Shown here: in pieces, positions 16,185 to 27,461 of the stretch | How positions within the stretch are numbered: position 1 is the first letter of the stretch | How the letters are laid out: each line of letters opens with the position of its first letter | DNA from: a virus | Strand: one strand, 5' to 3' | IMG/VR virus record: IMGVR_UViG_3300021090_000045 | Location: 1 to 45,341 of that record | Length of the DNA: 45,341 nucleotides | Program-made: the position numbers and the translations under genes | The notes under the pieces: generated by a model | Databases searched by the model: none | Told to the model about the DNA's origin: nothing | The model's input: only the letters and a program-made list of their open reading frames with translations

Positions 16185-17861
16185 CTAGGCGTCGCTGGCT
16201 GCTGGTTCTTTCAACGCTTTGACCCATGCGTCAGTCGTCCACGTCGCTAGGTCTTGCTTGTCGCGACGTGCTTGCACGATGACACTATCATACGTCTTTT
16301 GACCCTTGGGACCGACAGCGACGATATCGAAATATTCAATCGGTGCGACTTGACGCGGTCCGTATACCCTGTCGCCGCTCTGCAAGAACTTGCGCAAGCT
16401 GTGATCGTAGGAATAGTTGATACTGACGCGCGCTGCACTGAAGTCTAGACCAAACGATCCTGTGCCAATCGTGCCGACGCTGACAACACCCATATCTTTC
16501 GGCGCTGTCAGTGGGTGGAGCATTGCTTTTGTAAAGTCGCGTTCGTGCTTTGGTTGTCCGCCAAACAAACCCACCACAAGCACGCCATCGGGAAACTTCT
16601 TAGCGACTTCACGAAGAATGCGCTGCGTCTCGTGGACGAAGCGTGCCCAGATCACGATCTTGATGTGGGGATCTTTTGTCAGCAAATCAGTCAACAGCCA
16701 TAACAACACGTCGAGCTTGGAACGTCCGACTTCACGCACACTTGATAACAACGGCTGTGCAGCGCCGATGCCGCTGCCTTCGCAGTCTGCGCACATGTCT
16801 TGCTTAATGTAGCCGCTGCCTCCACACGTCACGCACGGCGGATCAAGTCCTGAATCTTGAATGCCTCCTAGAAATCCTCCGGTAATTTGCGTGAGGCGCA
16901 TGAACTTCACGATAGCTTGCTGCGATATGCTCGCGTTGCTGCCTTCAAGCATGACCAACATATCATCGCGCATCGACACATAGAACGGCCATTCTGTAGA
17001 CATCGTGGCTTTCAGTGTCACAGCTGGCAGCTTCGTTGGCATGTCTGGGCAATCCGCTTGCAGACGTCGCACCGTAAAAGGCTTGAAGCGTGCTTGCAGA
17101 TCTTCTAAATTTTTCCATCCCACGATCTTCGTCACGCCTTTATTGTAAGGCGTCATGACTTGCTTACCTGTTCGCGCGCTGATCACAGGCTCTTCTTTTG
17201 CGTATCGTCGTTTGAAGTGTGTGATGAATTTTGTCCCGATGATTGAGTCGTGCATCATACGCCCTTGCGCGAACAGATGGATGGGTGTGTCCATCGGCGT
17301 ACCGTTCATCAGCACAACACGTCCGCATTTCTGACGCATCGCAAAGCACGATTCAAATTGCTCCGAGTTGTGGCTGGTGACTGCGCCAGATTCATCAAGC
17401 ACGAACAGCGTTTTAGGCGTGCAATACTTCAGCAGCTTCTGCAGCGCCTTGTCATTCTTCTTAGCTTCGTCTTTGCGCTTGTAAGGTCTGATGAATTCGT
17501 AATTGCTGACGATAAAACGCAACTCGGGACCCGCTGGGCCGACGCGCCATTGATTGATCTTCGAATGAAACTCAGTCACCAGTGTTGGCGTCTTCAGCCA
17601 CAAATGTTCGTGCAGCTCGCCTCCAAGCGTAGTGGAATCTGCGCCGACCCATACACCGCGCACCGGCTCTGGGCAGATAACAATGACGCGATCAATCACA
17701 CCAGCGAAGAATAGAAACTGTGCGGCGTCGATCACGATCTTTGTTTTACCGGTCCGCATTTCAGACGCGATAAAGAAGAATGGATGATCGACCACCGCTT
17801 GGGTATCCTCAAGCTGATGGGCGAACGGTGTGTAACGCGAGGGCGACCAATCAAGCAGCAT
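16185..17861 (-). CDS. SNF2-like superfamily 2 helicase with zinc-knuckle insert
   Basis: A protein of 558 residues. Visible SF2/SNF2 motifs are MRTGKTK (Walker A, 35-41), VLDESG (motif II, 154-159), NGTPMD (motif III, 186-191) and QSGDRVYGPRQ (motif VI, 494-504). Between the two RecA lobes, at 343-364, is a CVTCGGSG...CADCEGSG pair that should bind zinc, like the DnaJ cysteine-rich repeats. Phage SNF2-type enzymes are replication or repair helicases/translocases; the exact substrate is unknown. Its start overlaps the end of thyX by 11 nt. Confidence 0.88.
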   Translation of the reverse strand: MLLDWSPSRYTPFAHQLEDTQAVVDHPFFFIASEMRTGKTKIVIDAAQFLFFAGVIDRVIVICPEPVRGVWVGADSTTLGGELHEHLWLKTPTLVTEFHSKINQWRVGPAGPELRFIVSNYEFIRPYKRKDEAKKNDKALQKLLKYCTPKTLFVLDESGAVTSHNSEQFESCFAMRQKCGRVVLMNGTPMDTPIHLFAQGRMMHDSIIGTKFITHFKRRYAKEEPVISARTGKQVMTPYNKGVTKIVGWKNLEDLQARFKPFTVRRLQADCPDMPTKLPAVTLKATMSTEWPFYVSMRDDMLVMLEGSNASISQQAIVKFMRLTQITGGFLGGIQDSGLDPPCVTCGGSGYIKQDMCADCEGSGIGAAQPLLSSVREVGRSKLDVLLWLLTDLLTKDPHIKIVIWARFVHETQRILREVAKKFPDGVLVVGLFGGQPKHERDFTKAMLHPLTAPKDMGVVSVGTIGTGSFGLDFSAARVSINYSYDHSLRKFLQSGDRVYGPRQVAPIEYFDIVAVGPKGQKTYDSVIVQARRDKQDLATWTTDAWVKALKEPAASDA

Positions 17862-18711
17862 GATCGAAGAGTTGCAGCGTGCGTGGAAAATGAAACTGCA
17901 ACAAGTCGTGTACCGCGTTGGCGTATTGACGAATCTCCCACTGCGCTGCCGGGTTCATACGCAGCTCAAGAAATTGCAACCAGTTGCGAAGATTCGCGCT
18001 GGCGCGCATGCGGGAGATCTGCCCAACAGGGACCACGACGCGGGCGACCTCGCGCGCTACACCCATCGACATCAAATCGACATACGCCATACGCGACGCT
18101 TTGTAAGCTCTGGCGATTTCATCTTGTCTGTGACGTGCTTCCAGTTCTGTGAACGCTTGTCCGCCGCTGGCTTGCTTGTTGATCGCGTCTTGCCGTGACT
18201 GCATGATCCGCGCAATCGACGGGATGTAGAACATGTCCGGCAGTTCGGTGTAGCGTGCGCTCAACTCGTTGTAAGACTGCGTGCGATGCCGATGCCATTC
18301 TCTGAACACAAAGATCGGCGCTTGCACTTCGAAGATGCAGCCCGCCATTTCGAATGGCGTGAAATGCTTGTGACCATAGAGATAGCCCAACAACTTGGCA
18401 TCGCCGTTGTGTCCACTCACATATGTCATGTTATGGATCACGCGAGGAGAAGGCATGATCGGCGCGCCAGCGGGAGGCATTACGACATCTATCGGCATCG
18501 GTACTTCGTGTTGAATGCGTATCGCAGGATCGTTGTGCGGCACCGTCATCGTATAACCGCACGTCGCACAACGATACAAGCTTTCAGGATTCCAGCCTAA
18601 GAATCCTTTATCGGTGGACATGCGCGCCGCTTCGATGATGCGTTCGTCACGGCCCCAGGTTTCGATCAGCTTGATCGAACAGTGCGGACTGTCAAGAAGT
18701 TGCGTCTGCAT
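17851..18711 (-). CDS. thyX: Flavin-dependent thymidylate synthase ThyX
   Basis: A protein of 286 residues. The ATG at 18711 has AGGAAGAGA directly upstream; the longer open frame shadows the previous gene. The ThyX signature is seen as RHRTQSYNELSARY (about 141-154), preceded by HFTPFE (116-121) and FEVQAPIFVFREWH. The enzyme makes dTMP from dUMP with FAD and methylenetetrahydrofolate, supplying thymidine nucleotides for viral DNA. Between AARMST (28-33) and the HFTPFE block there is an insertion of about 50 residues starting with CATC, which is longer than in typical ThyX (about 220-250 residues) and may add a metal or subunit contact. Confidence 0.95.
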   Translation of the reverse strand: MQTQLLDSPHCSIKLIETWGRDERIIEAARMSTDKGFLGWNPESLYRCATCGYTMTVPHNDPAIRIQHEVPMPIDVVMPPAGAPIMPSPRVIHNMTYVSGHNGDAKLLGYLYGHKHFTPFEMAGCIFEVQAPIFVFREWHRHRTQSYNELSARYTELPDMFYIPSIARIMQSRQDAINKQASGGQAFTELEARHRQDEIARAYKASRMAYVDLMSMGVAREVARVVVPVGQISRMRASANLRNWLQFLELRMNPAAQWEIRQYANAVHDLLQFHFPRTLQLFDHAA

Positions 18712-19057
18712 TCTCTTCCTCTGCTTTCTTCTTGCGCTCGTTGACACGTTCAGACAGCAGCGGAAGATCCAGCGGCTTGTCCATGTAGCACTTGTGACAG
18801 ATGAAGAGTTCGGTAACGAGTTCTTTGAACTCAGGTTCATCCATCGCGATAGTAAATCCCCGTGCCATCGCAGGCGCGAAGTTTTCAACCAGCGCATCAG
18901 ACGCATTGCCGCCGAAGAATCGACGCATGCCCAGATATTCGTCTACGGCTTGTCGATTGATGACAGCGACGGCGTAACGCACGACGTAGAAGATTCCACC
19001 ATTCACTGGCCCGTTGCAACTGTCGCACGGATGCAAGTCTCTCAGCTTACGTGGCAT
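18692..19057 (-). CDS. Zinc-finger-like hypothetical protein
   Basis: A protein of 121 residues. The ATG at 19057 has AAGGGA upstream. CDSC at residues 11-14 near the N-terminus and CHKC about 85 residues later could form one zinc ribbon split by a helical insert. The last 30 residues are Lys/Glu-rich and helical (SERVNERKKKAEEENADA). It overlaps the thyX start by 20 nt. Function unknown. Confidence 0.55.
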   Translation of the reverse strand: MPRKLRDLHPCDSCNGPVNGGIFYVVRYAVAVINRQAVDEYLGMRRFFGGNASDALVENFAPAMARGFTIAMDEPEFKELVTELFICHKCYMDKPLDLPLLSERVNERKKKAEEENADATS

Positions 19058-19253: not shown

Positions 19254-19479
19254 GTCGCTGACGTCGAAGCCGAAAAATACGCCGTTGGATCTCCCTGTCG
19301 AGGTACCAGCGGGCTTTTTCGAGGTCTTCGACGTCGGTGGCGCCTTTCTTGAGTCCTGCGCGTGCAATGTATTTGAGCGTATTACCAAGGCAGAACCCGG
19401 CTTCCCACGCTTCGATGACTTTGATCGCTTCATACTGCGTATCGCCGCCGTAATGTTGTGGGTGATTGATGCGCGACAT
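19183..19479 (-). CDS. DUF3310 protein
   Basis: A protein of 98 residues, of which the first ~65 match the DUF3310 family of small phage proteins: INHPQHYGG...YEAIKVIEAW, then LGNTLKYIARAG, then DVEDLEKARWYLDREI. Function is uncertain; some members are annotated as nucleotide kinases without strong proof. The remaining residues (RRIFRLRRQRHVQSRNRRHR) are almost pure Arg/His/Ser and look like out-of-frame reading of the next gene. The ATG overlaps the upstream TAA (TAATG). Confidence 0.75.
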   Translation of the reverse strand: MSRINHPQHYGGDTQYEAIKVIEAWEAGFCLGNTLKYIARAGLKKGATDVEDLEKARWYLDREIQRRIFRLRRQRHVQSRNRRHRRRTVTRRKSTRTD

Positions 19480-20240
19480 TAGTATTTCTTGCCGTGTTCT
19501 GAGAGTCGATGCGCGTGTGAATGGTCGACACGCACGCTGTTGTATTCCATTTTCTTTTCGAACGCGTCTGGAACATCAAGCGCCAGTCCGCCCGCGATGT
19601 CGAACAGCCGGATCAACGCGTCGGCGATTTCGACGGTCTTCATTCTGAACTGCGGGAGCTTGTCGTCCATCAAGTCTTTGCGATCACCTTCAAGCGCCTC
19701 TGCCAGCTCTGACGTCACGAGCATCAGCAGTTCACCGAAGTTGCGCGTAATGGGCTGACCTGTTTCAATATCTACCCACCACTTCTTGTTGGCGGCATGC
19801 GTATACCCGATCAGGGCGTCAAGCATTTCGCCGTAGGTCATCTGGTTCTTGCGCGCTGTCGGTAGATTGCTCTGCAGCACGGCTACTAATTCGTTTGTCG
19901 TATCGACGACGCGCACCAGTTGCTGTGCGTGAAAGAGGTTGGTCGGCTCACCCAGCACGAAAATCGGCAAGCCAAGACAGAGCGCGTAGCCGACTTCTGT
20001 GTGACGTCCGCCGGTGCCGCTGTTGGCCCACTTCTTGGGATTGATCAGCACGAGCGCTTCAGCGCTGCGCACGTCTGCCAGATCCATATCACCAGCCTCT
20101 TCGTTGGTGATTTTGAATGGGCCGTCGATCCAGCGTGACGTGACGAAGATACTGGGACTCGACATATTCAGCAGCGCGCGGACTTCGTCTGCTTGTTCTT
20201 TCAGCTGATATGGCGCGGCAATGTAGACGCGTGCGATCAT
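19479..20240 (-). CDS. Fusion: nucleoside 2-deoxyribosyltransferase-like + MazG-like domain
   Basis: A protein of 253 residues. Residues 1-105 resemble the nucleoside deoxyribosyltransferase fold: VYIAAPYQL (5-13), SRWIDGP (35-41), VLINPKKW (64-71) and GRHTEVGYA (78-86) with the probable catalytic Glu82. Residues about 135-220 are MazG-like: NFGELLMLVTSELAEALEGD (167-186) and VEIADALIRLFDIAG (203-217), with the ExxE...ExxD pattern. The joint product could cleave or exchange the base of unwanted deoxynucleosides and hydrolyse (d)NTPs, thereby shaping nucleotide pools; that coupling is inference. Start and stop overlap the neighbours by TAATG and ATGA. Confidence 0.75.
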   Translation of the reverse strand: MIARVYIAAPYQLKEQADEVRALLNMSSPSIFVTSRWIDGPFKITNEEAGDMDLADVRSAEALVLINPKKWANSGTGGRHTEVGYALCLGLPIFVLGEPTNLFHAQQLVRVVDTTNELVAVLQSNLPTARKNQMTYGEMLDALIGYTHAANKKWWVDIETGQPITRNFGELLMLVTSELAEALEGDRKDLMDDKLPQFRMKTVEIADALIRLFDIAGGLALDVPDAFEKKMEYNSVRVDHSHAHRLSEHGKKY

Positions 20241-20575: not shown

Positions 20576-20740
20576 CTACGCGCCGCGGGCAACGACGATG
20601 ACGACTTTCTTGGGGAACTTGTCCACGCGTGCGACGTGGTTATACAAGCTGACTTCGTTGCCGGTCTGCACGTTCACTTCAGAATCTTTGTCAATAACGG
20701 CTTGTAGTTCTTCGATCAATTGCTTGACAGACGTTCTCAT
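20576..20740 (-). CDS. 54-residue hypothetical protein
   Basis: A short gene with AGGAG 8 nt before the ATG, whose ATG overlaps the methyltransferase stop (ATGA). The product starts MRTSVKQLIEELQAVIDKDS, continues EVNVQTGNEVSLYNHVARVD and ends KFPKKVVIVVARGA. An N-terminal helix followed by beta strands resembles the many small phage proteins of the 'M-x-V-x-x-L-I-E-x-L' type. Function unknown. Confidence 0.65.
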   Translation of the reverse strand: MRTSVKQLIEELQAVIDKDSEVNVQTGNEVSLYNHVARVDKFPKKVVIVVARGA

Positions 20741-21267
20741 GGTGTAACTCCTGGAAGCTGATTACCAAACGACGTCCACCCATCGCGTCTGCGACGTGCG
20801 AACAATTCACAATACGGACCCTCGCGCAGTCGTTCGACGAGTTTGTAAAACGCTTCTGGCTTTTCTGAATGTCGACCGACAGGCGCTTCAAAGATAGAGC
20901 GTATCGACTTGTCAAGCGTTTGCGGTTTGCCGCTCTGTGCGATCAAGCACACTTCATGTTCATTGCGTACCGTGCGCCCCATGCCCATATGGCGCTTGCC
21001 GTGCTTCGTCAGTTTCTTCCACACGATTTCCGCTTTGACTTCGTAATCCCATGCGTCGAGCACGTCAAGCGCTTCCCGTTGCATCGCTGCAACGCGCCAC
21101 AAAAACACTGTGCTGTATTCATACATCGGTGGGAGGGGAAAACGTTTGATGTCGTCCACGCTCAAAATGCCGTAGTGCGCAGCTGCACCACGTGAGAAGT
21201 CGTCTAGCTGATCGTCGAAGGGCCACGGCGGATCGGCGCACAGCACGCGGAAACGTTCAGAGTTCAT
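20737..21267 (-). CDS. MT-A70-type adenine-N6 DNA methyltransferase
   Basis: A protein of 176 residues. The catalytic DPPW motif is at 12-15 (VLCADPPWPF). Further family features are YEYSTVFLWRVA, VWKKLTKHGKRHMGMGRTVR, NEHEVCLIAQSGKP and the C-terminal EAPVGRHSEKPEAFYKLVER, which matches the common RxHSxKPxxxY block of MT-A70 proteins. It should transfer a methyl group from SAM to adenine in DNA, possibly to protect phage DNA from restriction or to mark it. A second, different methyltransferase domain is fused to the polymerase at 23504-26947. Confidence 0.9.
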   Translation of the reverse strand: MNSERFRVLCADPPWPFDDQLDDFSRGAAAHYGILSVDDIKRFPLPPMYEYSTVFLWRVAAMQREALDVLDAWDYEVKAEIVWKKLTKHGKRHMGMGRTVRNEHEVCLIAQSGKPQTLDKSIRSIFEAPVGRHSEKPEAFYKLVERLREGPYCELFARRRRDGWTSFGNQLPGVTP

Positions 21268-21607: not shown

Positions 21608-21763
21608 CTATCTATTGCGAATCACACGAAGGACCACGTTAACGAAGCTTTCTTCGACAGCGTGCCGACGCGGTTCCAACTTATACAGCGATAGCACGCA
21701 CAATTGTTCTTCAGGTGTCATCAACGAAAAGGTACGGAGCGATAGTAAAAATTCTACGCTCAT
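21608..21763 (-). CDS. 51-residue hypothetical protein
   Basis: A short gene whose ATG overlaps the TGA of the clamp gene (ATGA). The product runs MSVEFLLSLRTFSLMTPEEQ, LCVLSLYKLEPRRHAVEESF, VNVVLRVIRNR. It is helical, with no motif I know. Its position between the clamp and the next gene in a fully packed operon is the main support. Confidence 0.55.
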   Translation of the reverse strand: MSVEFLLSLRTFSLMTPEEQLCVLSLYKLEPRRHAVEESFVNVVLRVIRNR

Positions 21764-22842
21764 GTTCGCATTTGCATAATGACGTTCATGAATTCGCCTG
21801 TGTCGCCGTCAGTCCACAACGTGGCTGTCGTCGCATCTTTCAACGACAGTCGCACGACGGCACTGGCAGCAGCGCTCAGAAAGTCTTCGACAAAGTTCCA
21901 TTCAAAGGCCAGTTTGAGCGCCGGCCCGGTGTATTCGATGTTCAGATGTTCCAGCGCATCGCCTAATTGTGCGTTCGCCGACGACAACGACAACAAGCCT
22001 TCCGCCAGGGTGAACGTGAGCGCCCGGCTATCACCAGATGCCAGCGCGACGCGTCGCAGCGCGGCTAGCAAGGTCGTGCGTGGGATCTTGGCAACGTGCT
22101 TGTTCTCTGTCGGCACGATGCGCTTGTAATTTGGAAAGGTGCCTTCCAGTGTGCGTGATGTTAGCATCGTGTCTTCTGACACGAAGAACATCTGCCGAAG
22201 GTCTTTGGTGAATAGAATGTCGTCGTGCCCTTCATCACTACCCAACACGTCAAGCGTCTTCGTGGGGATCACAATCTCTAACGACGGGCCAGGCGTTGTG
22301 CGTTTCATCGCAGTCAACGATAAACGTTTACCGTCGGTCGTCACTAGCGCGATAGCGTTGTCTGTGAGTGATAGCAACGCACCACTGATGAAGTATCGTT
22401 TATCGCTGTCGCTAATGGCATAGCGCACGCGTTTGATCATCGTCTTAAACATATCACCAGGGAGCAAGATCGCGCCGTCTGGCATCGTCGGCAGCTGTGG
22501 GAAGTCATCAGCTGGCAACGTGGCGATACGCATCTTGAAAGCGCCAGACGCAATTCTGACCTTTTCCTTTTCTAGCATCAAGTGCGTATGCTCTTCAGTG
22601 ATTTGACCTAACAGATCCAGCAGTGGTTTGACTGGCGCTGTGATGACGCCTGGTGTATTGATCGTCGCGGCGCACGCGCACGTCAAACTGATTTCTAGAT
22701 TCGTCGTTGATAGCTTTAGTTCCCCCATCTCTGCACGCAGCAATACATTTGCCATGATTGGCAGAATTGATTTCTGCTGCACGATCTTTTCAACGAGGCG
22801 CAATTTCTTTGCCAACAGCGCCGTGTTTACGGTGATGTTCAC
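21760..22842 (-). CDS. dnaN: DNA polymerase sliding clamp (beta subunit, DnaN family)
   Basis: A protein of 360 residues, the normal length of a bacterial beta clamp. The three-domain pattern is recognisable: N-terminal LVEKIVQQKSILPIMANVLL with the TTNLEIS strand; middle YAISDSDKRYFISGALLSLT and LVTTDGKRLSLT; C-terminal TSRTLEGTFPNYKRIVPTE. The last residues, EFMNVIMQMRT, match the conserved tail of the family. It should form a ring on DNA and tether the polymerase. It is encoded just downstream of the polymerase, so the phage carries its own processivity system. Confidence 0.95.
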   Translation of the reverse strand: MNITVNTALLAKKLRLVEKIVQQKSILPIMANVLLRAEMGELKLSTTNLEISLTCACAATINTPGVITAPVKPLLDLLGQITEEHTHLMLEKEKVRIASGAFKMRIATLPADDFPQLPTMPDGAILLPGDMFKTMIKRVRYAISDSDKRYFISGALLSLTDNAIALVTTDGKRLSLTAMKRTTPGPSLEIVIPTKTLDVLGSDEGHDDILFTKDLRQMFFVSEDTMLTSRTLEGTFPNYKRIVPTENKHVAKIPRTTLLAALRRVALASGDSRALTFTLAEGLLSLSSANAQLGDALEHLNIEYTGPALKLAFEWNFVEDFLSAAASAVVRLSLKDATTATLWTDGDTGEFMNVIMQMRT

Positions 22843-23503: not shown

Positions 23504-26500
23504 TTATTTCGCGTCAGCCCAATTTTTTCCTGTACCAGCGGCCCACAGAATCGGCACCGTTGTTTCGATGGATTGCACGTTCAGAAGATCTTCAATCTTC
23601 TTGGCAGCAGCGACGTCGGGAACATCACCCGTGACTTCGTCGTGTACCGTCATACGCATCGTAAAGCCCAGTGCTCTGCGTTGCTTGAACAGCTCGACGA
23701 GTTTTGTTTTCATGATGTCAGCGGCGCTACCTTGAATGATCGCGTTCAGCGCTTTATGAATCTTGTAATCCGTGGGGAAGCGTGAGCGACGACCCAGCAC
23801 CGTCTTCACATAGCCACGATGCTTGAACTCTCTATGCATGTCGTCGTTCTTGTTGCAATAATCATTGCACTTCGACATGGCAAGATGCATCGCTTTACGT
23901 GTCAGCGGTTTCACTTCAGGCATTTCTTTGTCGTAGATCGATTCAATCTCGCGCGCTTGCTCTAGCAACGGCGATGTCTTCTGCGCTTTGCGTGCCGTAA
24001 TGTCGTCACCTTGTTCTTCGGTGATCATCCCCATCATGACAGCAGTCTTGACCGTGCCACCGCCATACATGCGCATGAAGTTAAAGGACTTCATGTTTGT
24101 ATAGCTGAAGTCAGGACGATACCGCGTAATCTTGGGCCACATCAGTTTATGAAAACTGACGCGCGGATCGTCACGGTACGCTTGCAGCACTCGGGGATTC
24201 TTCGCATGACTTGCGAAGATACGATATTCAATCTGCGATGCGTCGCCCGCGAAGAATAATCCCGAGCCGGGTGTGTAAAGCGCCCGCGGGTTATATAAGT
24301 CACCGAAGACCGCAAAGTGATTATCGTGGTTGGGCACTTGCTGCACATACGCAGCAGAGAAACGTCCACTGACCGTACCGCGTTGTCCGTGCTCGTCGTC
24401 AAGGCGCAGCTGATTGTATTCGACGCGGAGAATACCGTTCTTGTCTACGTTCTCTAGATACGGTTTATAAATCTTGCTGCGTAGTGAGTCGAGCTGCGCG
24501 GCAAATCGCGCCTTCTTGATGACAGGATGATCGACACGTTCAAGCACCGCATCCTTAAACGTGGGCTTGTCGCTGCGCTCATTCGTACCTTTGACTTTGC
24601 CGTAGACTAAGGGGATCTTGTATCGTTCGAAGAGGCGAATCCATGACGCGTCGGTATCGTCGAAATTGAAGCCTGCTTCGTTCGCGACTTCGCGAATCAA
24701 CTTGTGGTAATGCTCTTCGCTTTCGCGTGCCCATTGCTGTAGCAATTCAACGTTTAGCGGTGCGCCGTTGCGTTCCATCTCACAGACAACGGGAATGATC
24801 TGATCTTCTAGTGCGCGCACGTTCTGCAGCCCTTGCGCATCAAGCATGGGCCACATAACGTCTTTCAGTTGTGCGACGGTTTCAACGTCACCTTCTGCAC
24901 GCTTCGCCACCATCCATGGCTCATAATCGGCCATGCGCGTGGGGTCTAAATCCATGCCTTCTTTTTCGCGCCCAAGAAAGTCTTTCGCTAGTTCGTTGAG
25001 CGCGAATCGTTTTCGATGATCGTCAAGCAGCGCTGCGTAATGCATCACGTCGCTAAACGTGCAGCCTTGTTCGACAAGATCGGCGCCCATCGCATACGCC
25101 ACATGCACTTCAAATCCGGTGCGCGCGTTGGTGATGCGCTTCCCCTTCAGCTCTGTCTGAAACCAACGCAGCGCCACAGCGGGATCGATCTGGTCACTGC
25201 AGTTGCGATGGCGTATCGGATAATACTTCTTGCGCCCGTTTGGCAGTCGCAGGGCCCACCCAATCGCAATATCACGATTGTAGTAATCGACGCCGTCTGT
25301 TTCAAAATCAAGTTCGATATCGTGAATCCCATCAAGTGACGGCGGCGCCTCGACGCGCCAATCTTTCGGCACATCGCTCACAGGTGCTTCGCCTAAGAAT
25401 TGAATGATGGATTGCGTCTTTGCTTGTTGTTCTTCTGGGAACGTCGGCGCGATGACTAGCAGTTCATCGCGCACCGATTTGATTAGTGCGCGCTCGTCGT
25501 CACTCAACGTTGACGCGTTGGTCACCACAAGCTTGCCGTGACGCGCGAAGATCTGGTGACCTTTCGTCAGCATCAACAGCTCCACTTGATGCGCTGTGAT
25601 CGCCGGCGTCGCTTGCACGGCTGCGACGACGACCGCTGCCGCCGCTGCTAGACTGTTCTCTTTTTGAGACACTGTGTCAGCGTCTTCAGACTGTCTAGGA
25701 TTCGCTGTAAGCGGTTCAGGCCCCAGCGCAGTCAAGAACGCGTCGAGCGGGTTAAAGTCTTCAGCTGCGTTGGTTGTGTCAGGGCTTTCTAGCTTCTGAG
25801 CGCTCGACGAGTCAGCGACGTCCAACGCGGGAGTGTCAGACTGTGCAAGTGGCGCCATCACGTCGGCAAACGCTGTCGCGCTCACGTGCAGACCCGCATG
25901 GACATCGACTTCAACGACGATGGGCAGCGCGTCAGGTTCGATCCAGCTGCCGGGGTTTTTCACTTCGTAGAATGTTTCACCTTCACCCGTCTTGCCTAAA
26001 CCATTCGACGACGACAGTCGATCTTTTTCTTTGCTGACTTCATATTTGCCAGCGCTGATCTCTATCAGCTTTTCGTTGAGCGGATAGATTCGACTCCCGA
26101 TGTTGAGCACGAAGCAGGCACCGGGTTTTAACGCGCGCATCGTTCGATGAATCAGCGGTGCGTAAAATCCATTGCACCATTCAGAGAACGACGCGTACCG
26201 ATTCATGCTGTTGATCGCTTCGTTCGGCGCGTAATGCTCTGTGTCGTAATACGGCGGCGACGTCATGGCAAAGTCAAACGACGCTGCCTCTAGTTCGATG
26301 TCTTCAAATGGCGTTTCATTGATGCGCGCATGAAAATCCGCGCGAAACGATTGAATGAATCGTAGAATGCGCCGAAGCCCGGCGGCAGTGCGTGCGCTCG
26401 GCTCACAGCACGTATACGCGTTGACGACAGCGGAGAATCCGAGCATGCGTCCGCCCCAGCCCGCGCATGGATCTAGAATGTTGCAGCGCTTCGACATGCC

Positions 26501-26947
26501 GTAGGCGATGGCAAGATCACGTGCGACATGTGGCGGGAATTCTTGCACGTAGCTAGTGCCTTGCACGCCCATGCCGATAGACGCATACAACAGATCTTTC
26601 GTCGCGCCTTTTTTCTTGTTTAGTAGCACGACACGTGCCAGCCCTTTGACGAAGCTTTCGTCGTGTAACGCGCGAAACAAGCTGATGGGGAACCGTTTCG
26701 TACCGGTGTCTAGTCGATGGGGATTGAATGTGAGGCTGATACGCTGACCCGTCTTTTCGCCAGCGCAGAGATTCGCATAGTCCACGACGGCTTCAAAGCC
26801 GTTCGTGAACATCGCAACGAACTCTTCTAACGTGACGTCGCGCAACTGCGCATAGAGCGCGCGTGCTAGCGTGTCACGATCAATGTCCGGTTTCTCTGCA
26901 ACGGCGTCGCCGAATAGATTTTCACCTTCGTTGAGTTCAATCGACAT
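23504..26947 (-). CDS. Fusion: SAM-dependent DNA methyltransferase + family A DNA polymerase
   Basis: A single frame of 1147 residues. Residues 1-340 are a methyltransferase: motif I NILDPCAGWGGRMLG (156-170) and motif IV TSPPYYD (229-235), followed by PGACFVLNIGSR. Residues about 340-535 are a low-complexity linker rich in Ala, Ser, Asp and Glu, with a short helical module (about 450-502). Residues 535-1147 are a family A polymerase: exonuclease motif ELDFETDG (545-552), an Exo III-like HYAALLDD, motif A FFAGDASQIEYR (898-909), motif B KSFNFMRMYGGG (953-964), QGSAADIMK (1072-1080) and motif C TVHDEV (1100-1105). Exo II has GFE in place of the usual FD, so proofreading may be altered. It should copy the phage genome; the attached methyltransferase could modify nascent DNA (inference). 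Confidence 0.93.
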   Translation of the reverse strand: MSIELNEGENLFGDAVAEKPDIDRDTLARALYAQLRDVTLEEFVAMFTNGFEAVVDYANLCAGEKTGQRISLTFNPHRLDTGTKRFPISLFRALHDESFVKGLARVVLLNKKKGATKDLLYASIGMGVQGTSYVQEFPPHVARDLAIAYGMSKRCNILDPCAGWGGRMLGFSAVVNAYTCCEPSARTAAGLRRILRFIQSFRADFHARINETPFEDIELEAASFDFAMTSPPYYDTEHYAPNEAINSMNRYASFSEWCNGFYAPLIHRTMRALKPGACFVLNIGSRIYPLNEKLIEISAGKYEVSKEKDRLSSSNGLGKTGEGETFYEVKNPGSWIEPDALPIVVEVDVHAGLHVSATAFADVMAPLAQSDTPALDVADSSSAQKLESPDTTNAAEDFNPLDAFLTALGPEPLTANPRQSEDADTVSQKENSLAAAAAVVVAAVQATPAITAHQVELLMLTKGHQIFARHGKLVVTNASTLSDDERALIKSVRDELLVIAPTFPEEQQAKTQSIIQFLGEAPVSDVPKDWRVEAPPSLDGIHDIELDFETDGVDYYNRDIAIGWALRLPNGRKKYYPIRHRNCSDQIDPAVALRWFQTELKGKRITNARTGFEVHVAYAMGADLVEQGCTFSDVMHYAALLDDHRKRFALNELAKDFLGREKEGMDLDPTRMADYEPWMVAKRAEGDVETVAQLKDVMWPMLDAQGLQNVRALEDQIIPVVCEMERNGAPLNVELLQQWARESEEHYHKLIREVANEAGFNFDDTDASWIRLFERYKIPLVYGKVKGTNERSDKPTFKDAVLERVDHPVIKKARFAAQLDSLRSKIYKPYLENVDKNGILRVEYNQLRLDDEHGQRGTVSGRFSAAYVQQVPNHDNHFAVFGDLYNPRALYTPGSGLFFAGDASQIEYRIFASHAKNPRVLQAYRDDPRVSFHKLMWPKITRYRPDFSYTNMKSFNFMRMYGGGTVKTAVMMGMITEEQGDDITARKAQKTSPLLEQAREIESIYDKEMPEVKPLTRKAMHLAMSKCNDYCNKNDDMHREFKHRGYVKTVLGRRSRFPTDYKIHKALNAIIQGSAADIMKTKLVELFKQRRALGFTMRMTVHDEVTGDVPDVAAAKKIEDLLNVQSIETTVPILWAAGTGKNWADAK

Positions 26948-26951
26948 TGTT

Positions 26952-27461
26952 TTACAGCGCGCCGACGTTCATGAACGTATTGCCAAGTTTTCTGAAGTGA
27001 AATAGAAATCCGCGCAGATTGCTGCCTTTGTAAGCGACAAGGTATCCTGATGCAACATCGTGCGCCTTACGATGATGCGATACTATTTTTGGCTTTCGCC
27101 GTCCTGTCAAGAAACATAGCGCGGTGGCGTGACTCGACAAAAATGGGAACATGTAGTGATTCGACAGGCTTCGGCATTCTGTGAAGATGATCAACTGTTG
27201 CAGTTCTCCTGGACGAACCAACGCAAACGACGCTGACTGTACCTTCGGGAGATCTGCCGGCGTCTCAATGTCGATCATGAATTTTTCAATGCATAACTGC
27301 ATCATCGATTGAGGCGGTGCAATCAAAACATTGCCAGACCATCGCTGGGCTAACGCTGCTTGCACGTGCGCGCTTTCGGTTACTTCGATGTCAACCATGT
27401 TTGACATGGTGGTCCTTGCCGCGTCAAGCGCGTCTGCCATTTCGTATAGTCGTTCATGCAT
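26952..27461 (-). CDS. Hypothetical protein upstream of the polymerase
   Basis: A protein of 169 residues; AAGGG lies about 11 nt before the ATG. A charged N-terminal helix precedes an alpha/beta domain with AQRWSGNVLIAPPQSMMQLC, QLIIFTECRSLSNHYMFPFL and a basic part (TGRRKPKIVSHHRKAHDVAS). The end (NLRGFLFHFRKLGNTFMNVG) is beta-like. Not recognised; the 4-nt gap to the polymerase gene suggests a shared role. Confidence 0.5.
   Translation of the reverse strand: MHERLYEMADALDAARTTMSNMVDIEVTESAHVQAALAQRWSGNVLIAPPQSMMQLCIEKFMIDIETPADLPKVQSASFALVRPGELQQLIIFTECRSLSNHYMFPFLSSHATALCFLTGRRKPKIVSHHRKAHDVASGYLVAYKGSNLRGFLFHFRKLGNTFMNVGAL

Follow-up and report, generated by a model that had tools for sequence, protein, structure and literature searches.

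A single gene in the DNA studied here encodes, in one unbroken frame, a predicted DNA methyltransferase followed by a phage family A DNA polymerase, and sequence comparison indicates that the N-terminal slot of this polymerase clade is interchangeable. That DNA-marking enzymes occupy the same spot on related polymerases points to a marking of DNA during its copying in these phages, and we consider it fairly probable that the methyltransferase is tethered to the phage replicase in order to modify new phage DNA during its synthesis. The gene lies in a 45,341-base virus record of IMG/VR, the whole of which is referred to here as the window; with genes for terminase subunits, a sliding clamp, an MT-A70 methyltransferase, ThyX, an SF1 helicase and a VapE-like protein, the window comes from a tailed phage.

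A single frame in the window and its conservation

The uninterrupted frame of 1147 residues claimed in an earlier note made from the sequence alone is confirmed: it runs on the minus strand from an ATG at 26947 to a stop at 23504 with no internal stop, and the plus strand across the same bases is broken by many stops. A chance open frame was ruled out, the longest open run in 200 shuffles of the same bases being 233 codons. The gene starts 4 bases past the end of the upstream gene (26952-27461), an arrangement like that of a phage operon. A stop or indel in the linker, which the earlier note held would refute the fusion, is not found: no frameshift or stop divides the frame.

The entire fusion recurs as one frame of 1141 residues in L082 (IMGVR_UViG_3300036781_000044) and of 1140 residues in L222 (3300012943_000039), both ~60% identical to that of the window, so that the homologues spanning both halves called for in the earlier note do exist; in L095 (3300049564_000005) the methyltransferase and tether, the first 517 residues, run to the contig end. 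Stop-free recurrence in other records at ~60% identity rules out a sequencing or assembly artefact. No close relatives came from a search for exact peptide patterns taken over the full length of the protein.

Table 1. Features of the fusion gene and nearby genes in the window
Feature	Position	Strand	Basis
MTase-PolA fusion gene, 1147 aa	23504..26947	-	stop-free frame; architecture matches L082, L222, and L095 to contig end
N-terminal methyltransferase domain (predicted), residues 1-335	25943..26947	-	alignments, model pLDDT 92.8
Motif I (AdoMet binding) DPCAGWGG, residues 159-166	26450..26473	-	alignments
Motif IV (catalytic) TSPPY, residues 229-233	26249..26263	-	alignment
Disordered tether, residues 338-447	25607..25936	-	pLDDT <50; pN/pS 0.67-0.88
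Small folded TubC_N-like domain, residues ~450-503	25439..25600	-	pLDDT ~90; L239 equivalent; kept in L226
Family A DNA polymerase + 3'-5' exonuclease domain, residues 525-1147	23507..25375	-	DNA_pol_A, phrog_17, motifs A, B, C
Sliding clamp of DNA pol III beta type, in the fusion operon	21760..22842	-	Pfam DNA_pol3_beta, beta_2, beta_3
MT-A70 family methyltransferase gene	20737..21267	-	Pfam MT-A70 E 6.2e-24
ThyX thymidylate synthase	17851..18906	-	Pfam Thy1 E 3.8e-41

The clamp, MT-A70 and ThyX genes that had been reported nearby are all confirmed by Pfam matches (Table 1), and a gene matching the MT-A70 of the window also lies beside the clamp in L222, L223 and L224. An SbcC-like AAA ATPase gene is present in the record. 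A 253-aa protein encoded at 19479-20240 (minus strand), whose C-terminus is of pyrophosphatase type (phrog_5658) and which weakly matches nucleoside deoxyribosyltransferase, is possibly a nucleotide-pool enzyme.

Prediction of the structure of the full chain, proposed earlier as a check, gave three folded units (residues 1-335, ~450-503 and 525-1147) on disordered joins (338-447 and 505-524) with a pTM of 0.61, and because the three units lack a fixed arrangement, no specific coupling surface is visible. The low-complexity linker of about 200 residues described in the earlier note is thus disordered only in part: the tether proper is ~110 residues long, and it is followed by the small folded domain and the short second join. 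The equivalent of the small domain in L239 weakly matches TubC_N (E 0.03), and the domain is still present in the polymerase of L226, which has no methyltransferase.

Across the window, L082, L222 and L095, pN/pS was 0.23-0.32 for the methyltransferase, 0.32-0.34 for the polymerase and 0.67-0.88 for the tether, values that are rough because synonymous sites are near saturation. Judged by these ratios, both enzyme halves are under purifying selection and the tether is not, the pattern expected of two constrained enzymes and a free tether obliged to stay in frame. An internal start that would make a free polymerase was considered and rejected: a GGAG-like stretch does precede an ATG at residue 459, yet L082 and L222 lack that Met, so the start has no conserved signal.

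The methyltransferase domain

Both motifs attributed earlier to the methyltransferase half, DPCAGWGG (159-166) and TSPPYYD (229-235), are present. Relatives were gathered via a DNA pattern for DPCAGWGG plus alignments, and we call the family ‘NPHR’ from its conserved LFNPHRLDT stretch. DPCAGWGG is invariant in 12/12 members of one alignment and nearly so across 54 relatives; TSPPY is invariant in all 54, and DPC nearly so. SAM binding, the lack of which the earlier note held would refute its claim, is inferred here only from the retention of motifs I and IV. The AlphaFold2 model of residues 1-335 (mean pLDDT 92.8) has a class I methyltransferase fold, so that the features defining a class I AdoMet exocyclic-amino methyltransferase, namely a Rossmann-like fold, motif I and a (D/N/S/T)PP(Y/F) motif IV, are all met. 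The closest solved folds, Trm11, METTL5, TrmI and TrmN (Z 16.5-17.9), are RNA methyltransferases, which counts against a role in DNA modification.

The Pfam model N6_N4_Mtase (PF01555) scores 16.6 bits on this half, below its cut-off of 26.7 (E 0.0081), and kinship with PF01555 is only distant; phrog_12517 also matches weakly (E 5.4e-5). The sequence TSPPY is typical of m4C enzymes. Motif IV accordingly suggests N4-cytosine as the putative target, and adenine is not excluded, the substrate being unmeasured. We found no plasmid relatives of the methyltransferase, and no restriction endonuclease among the neighbours scanned, some small genes lying outside that scan.

The polymerase domain

DNA_pol_A (Pfam) matches residues 736-1145 (E 2.1e-30, 106 bits against a cut-off of 34.3) and the phrog_17 DNA polymerase family matches residues 530-1146 (E 3.3e-71). 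Membership of family A is borne out by that score and by motifs A, B and C (GDASQIEYR, K...YGG and VHDE). The full set of exonuclease and polymerase motifs claimed in the earlier note needs correction, several exonuclease and O-helix residues being non-canonical. The ExoI DxE (DFET) and the ExoIII Asp are kept, but the ExoII Asp is replaced by Glu, the ExoIII Tyr by Arg and, as in most of the clade, the O-helix Arg by Tyr. Apart from the fusion, no polymerase of family A, B or C was detected in the record.

Phage polymerases of phrog_17, such as those of Dinoroseobacter phage R5C and Acinetobacter phage Bhz20, are 26-27% identical to the polymerase half of the window; the phrog_17 polymerases of isolates align only from about residue 497, and none covers the methyltransferase half.

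The ExoI acidic residues are gone (DFET to NFAT) in the polymerase halves of L223, L224, L239, L243, L245 and L227, and because of this loss proofreading is, as far as residues alone can indicate, probably dead in those six; the window group and L277 retain the DxE.

Exchange of the N-terminal enzyme among related polymerases

Searches with the polymerase half gave ~36 distinct members of its clade, most of which lack any N-terminal enzyme. A long in-frame N-terminal extension is carried by 11 members, with L095 as a truncated twelfth. The slot holds the window-type methyltransferase in the window, L082, L222 and the truncated L095; a second methyltransferase in L227 (phrog_12517, E 6.5e-97) and L260 (E 4e-95); and a TAGT DNA glycosyltransferase in L223, L224, L239, L243, L245 and L277 (PF20691, E 1.6e-28 to 4.2e-42). 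The T6-type glucosyltransferase family phrog_842 matches both of the TAGT-fused members scanned, and the alternative enzymes keep catalytic-type motifs (SCPPY and WxxDDN).

On the polymerase tree the fusion type of the window forms one clade (100/100), the methyltransferase-bearing L227 is sister to the TAGT-bearing L243 (100/99), and L277 with its TAGT is remote from the other TAGT carriers, so that the tree demands at least 5 changes of slot state. In L226, the polymerase segment is 73% identical to that of the window and is preceded by part of the linker only; the methyltransferase is dispensable within the lineage. The sole bare member within the fused clade, L228, has a separate methyltransferase-like gene downstream. 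From the swapping of chemically different modifiers at one place we infer that selection favours modification at the polymerase and not any one chemistry.

A stand-alone TAGT gene occurs in the records of the bare polymerases L251, L256, L257 and L252, in several of them a few kilobases off. The contigs of L256 and L257 each hold two TAGT-type glycosyltransferase matches downstream of the bare polymerase of the same clade. Neither Tet_JBP nor DNA_methylase (PF00145) was matched in ten records, and the Tet_JBP search was also silent in control genomes; a 5mC-TET-glucose pathway in the TAGT-fused relatives is unsupported, and the absence of Tet_JBP is not established.

Association of the methyltransferase family with replication genes

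Where the methyltransferase is not fused, it usually neighbours a polymerase, clamp, helicase or primase gene. The stand-alone genes are adjacent to, or one gene from, PolA in L027, L081, L006, L209 and L144, a clamp together with PolA in L045, a clamp with DnaE in L057, a clamp alone in L137, DnaB in L131 and primase genes in L015 and L072. A PolA, clamp or DnaE gene lies within 5 kb at 11 of 18 family loci and at 3 of 101 loci of more distant relatives (Fisher p 9e-9). The p value is a guide only: the loci are phylogenetically non-independent, and the tree places L234, counted among the 18, outside the family. In phages, moreover, methyltransferase genes are commonly found next to replication genes, which counts against the proposed coupling.

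A member of the family also forms the C-terminal part of a family B polymerase (L112:454-3366), in the order opposite to that of the window. This polymerase matches phrog_1252 (E 1.8e-198) and is 48% identical to family B polymerases of isolates; its match to the Pfam PolB model falls below the cut-off. The methyltransferase tree gives the L112 fusion a second, independent origin.

Some of these loci have further features. On the contig of L027, a uracil-DNA glycosylase domain is fused to a family A polymerase (L136:6951-9392) directly downstream of the stand-alone family member. The contig of L057 carries a DnaE-type polymerase gene (L133:8066-10351), apparently with at least one intein (Pfam Intein_splicing, Hint), that adjoins the methyltransferase and a clamp-like gene. 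At L144:5935-6955 a methyltransferase of the same family lies in two overlapping frames beside PolA, which reflects either sequencing error or decay.

Comparison with known systems

The earlier note knew of no described family with this architecture, and within our searches of phage records and the literature that statement holds. No match to the window fusion at 80% coverage or more was found in 50,697 phage records, nor was any found there at that coverage for the fusions of L277 (TAGT), L260 (second methyltransferase) or L112 (PolB). The matches listed from BFVD structures are to polymerases, and the methyltransferase half was not seen in any of them. A literature search, outside which most subscription papers lay, found no such fusion and returned only flavivirus NS5, TAGT in T6-like phages and general reviews; nor was one seen in a jumbo-phage survey (PMC7824862).

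Flavivirus NS5 (PMC3738499) likewise places an AdoMet methyltransferase N-terminal to a viral replicase polymerase in one chain, but it belongs to an RNA virus, methylates caps and has an RdRp fold, whereas the window pairs a DNA polymerase with a predicted DNA base methyltransferase; the likeness is one of layout, and we claim no kinship for either half. TAGT (TET-associated DNA glycosyltransferase, PF20691, T6 type) is an N-terminal domain in the sister polymerases, where the window has a methyltransferase instead, and in T6-like phages it is a separate gene product (PMC13390438). The methylases of phrog_12517 and phrog_498 (for example in Erythrobacter phage R6L) are distant relatives of the window methyltransferase and the direct family of the L227 and L260 domain; the isolate proteins carry the annotation DNA modification methylase or ParB-like protein and are without a polymerase fusion. 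Pas55 of Actinoplanes phage phiAsp2 (1415 aa) is likewise a long family A polymerase from a phage and has an additional domain at its N-terminus, but it was ruled out as a precedent, that domain being DUF3854 and no known DNA-modifying enzyme. The parts are of known kinds, but the searches turned up no description of a replicase that unites them and takes exchangeable modifiers.

Discussion

We propose that the C-terminal ~620 residues are the DNA polymerase of the phage and the N-terminal 335 residues an exocyclic-amino DNA methyltransferase, with the long flexible tether letting the methyltransferase reach the duplex as it leaves the polymerase. New phage DNA would then be methylated during synthesis, before host restriction or other nucleases could reach a strand still lacking the mark, and the enzyme would be directed to phage replication forks and away from host DNA. 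The slot may be a general device, bearing another methyltransferase or a TAGT glycosyltransferase in other relatives, and its most likely purpose would be the shielding of new phage DNA against host nucleases. Replication-coupled modification had been suggested in the earlier note, and it is supported by the conserved fusion, by the link to replication genes and, most tellingly, by the slot exchanges and the independent fusion to a family B polymerase, which the note did not have. Counting against it are the dispensability of the methyltransferase (L226), the bare state of most clade members, the lack of a visible coupling surface, the Pfam score below cut-off and the RNA methyltransferases among the closest folds; catalysis, the base modified, action on the nascent strand during replication and the protective role are all inferred, and activity, base and nascent-strand action remain unproven.

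The fusion might instead be one of convenience, in which adjacent early genes merged and the methyltransferase acts on phage DNA as a free enzyme would, uncoupled from synthesis, with only stoichiometry and timing fixed by the shared chain. Stand-alone family members directly adjoin polymerase genes (L027, L081 and L209), so a read-through fusion would be easy; the tether, besides its length, is disordered and evolves fast; and polymerases without the methyltransferase domain are viable. Yet in several separate gains the same slot has taken up three unrelated or distantly related modifiers, and a reverse-order fusion to PolB exists besides, which exceeds what convenience predicts, while fusions to other operon neighbours were not seen among the loci examined; we regard this explanation as unlikely, though it deserves to be kept in mind. 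A weaker candidate still is that the mark is a signal distinguishing phage from host DNA, for nuclease sparing, for the timing of packaging or replication initiation, or as a label of the new strand. The separate MT-A70 methyltransferase that shares the operon, both in the window and in relatives, and the SbcC-like ATPase gene would both suit it, and because the operon holds this second methyltransferase, protection and signalling may be split between two enzymes. Exchange for TAGT, which is known in phages for hypermodifying DNA (T6 type, PMC13390438), accords better with protection than with a specific signal.

It is also conceivable, if very improbable, that the N-terminal domain methylates nothing and serves as a DNA- or protein-binding module for processivity or the recruitment of partners. 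Methyltransferase folds do bind DNA, and a role in binding alone is not excluded because in the full-length model the domain hangs free from its tether. Against this, motifs I and IV are invariant or nearly so, the whole domain is under strong purifying selection, a clamp gene is already present in the window, and the other slot enzymes have likewise retained their catalytic-type motifs.

Modification of phage DNA is usually viewed as acting either on free nucleotides, as for the hmC of T4, or on finished DNA, as for Dam and the glucosyltransferases. We tentatively raise the possibility, about which we remain somewhat doubtful, that there is a class of ‘modifying replicases’ in which an exchangeable marker, either of two kinds of methyltransferase or a glycosyltransferase, makes modification an obligate part of synthesis, and that this class arose more than once, in families A and B. 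If this is so, a polymerase with a swappable modifier would be a third route of modification, one that closes the period for which new phage DNA is naked, and the speed of modification behind the fork would become testable within one protein. An engineering principle is also suggested, that of a polymerase writing marks during copying. For the clade itself, unknown N-terminal domains of these polymerases would be good candidates for new DNA-modifying enzymes.
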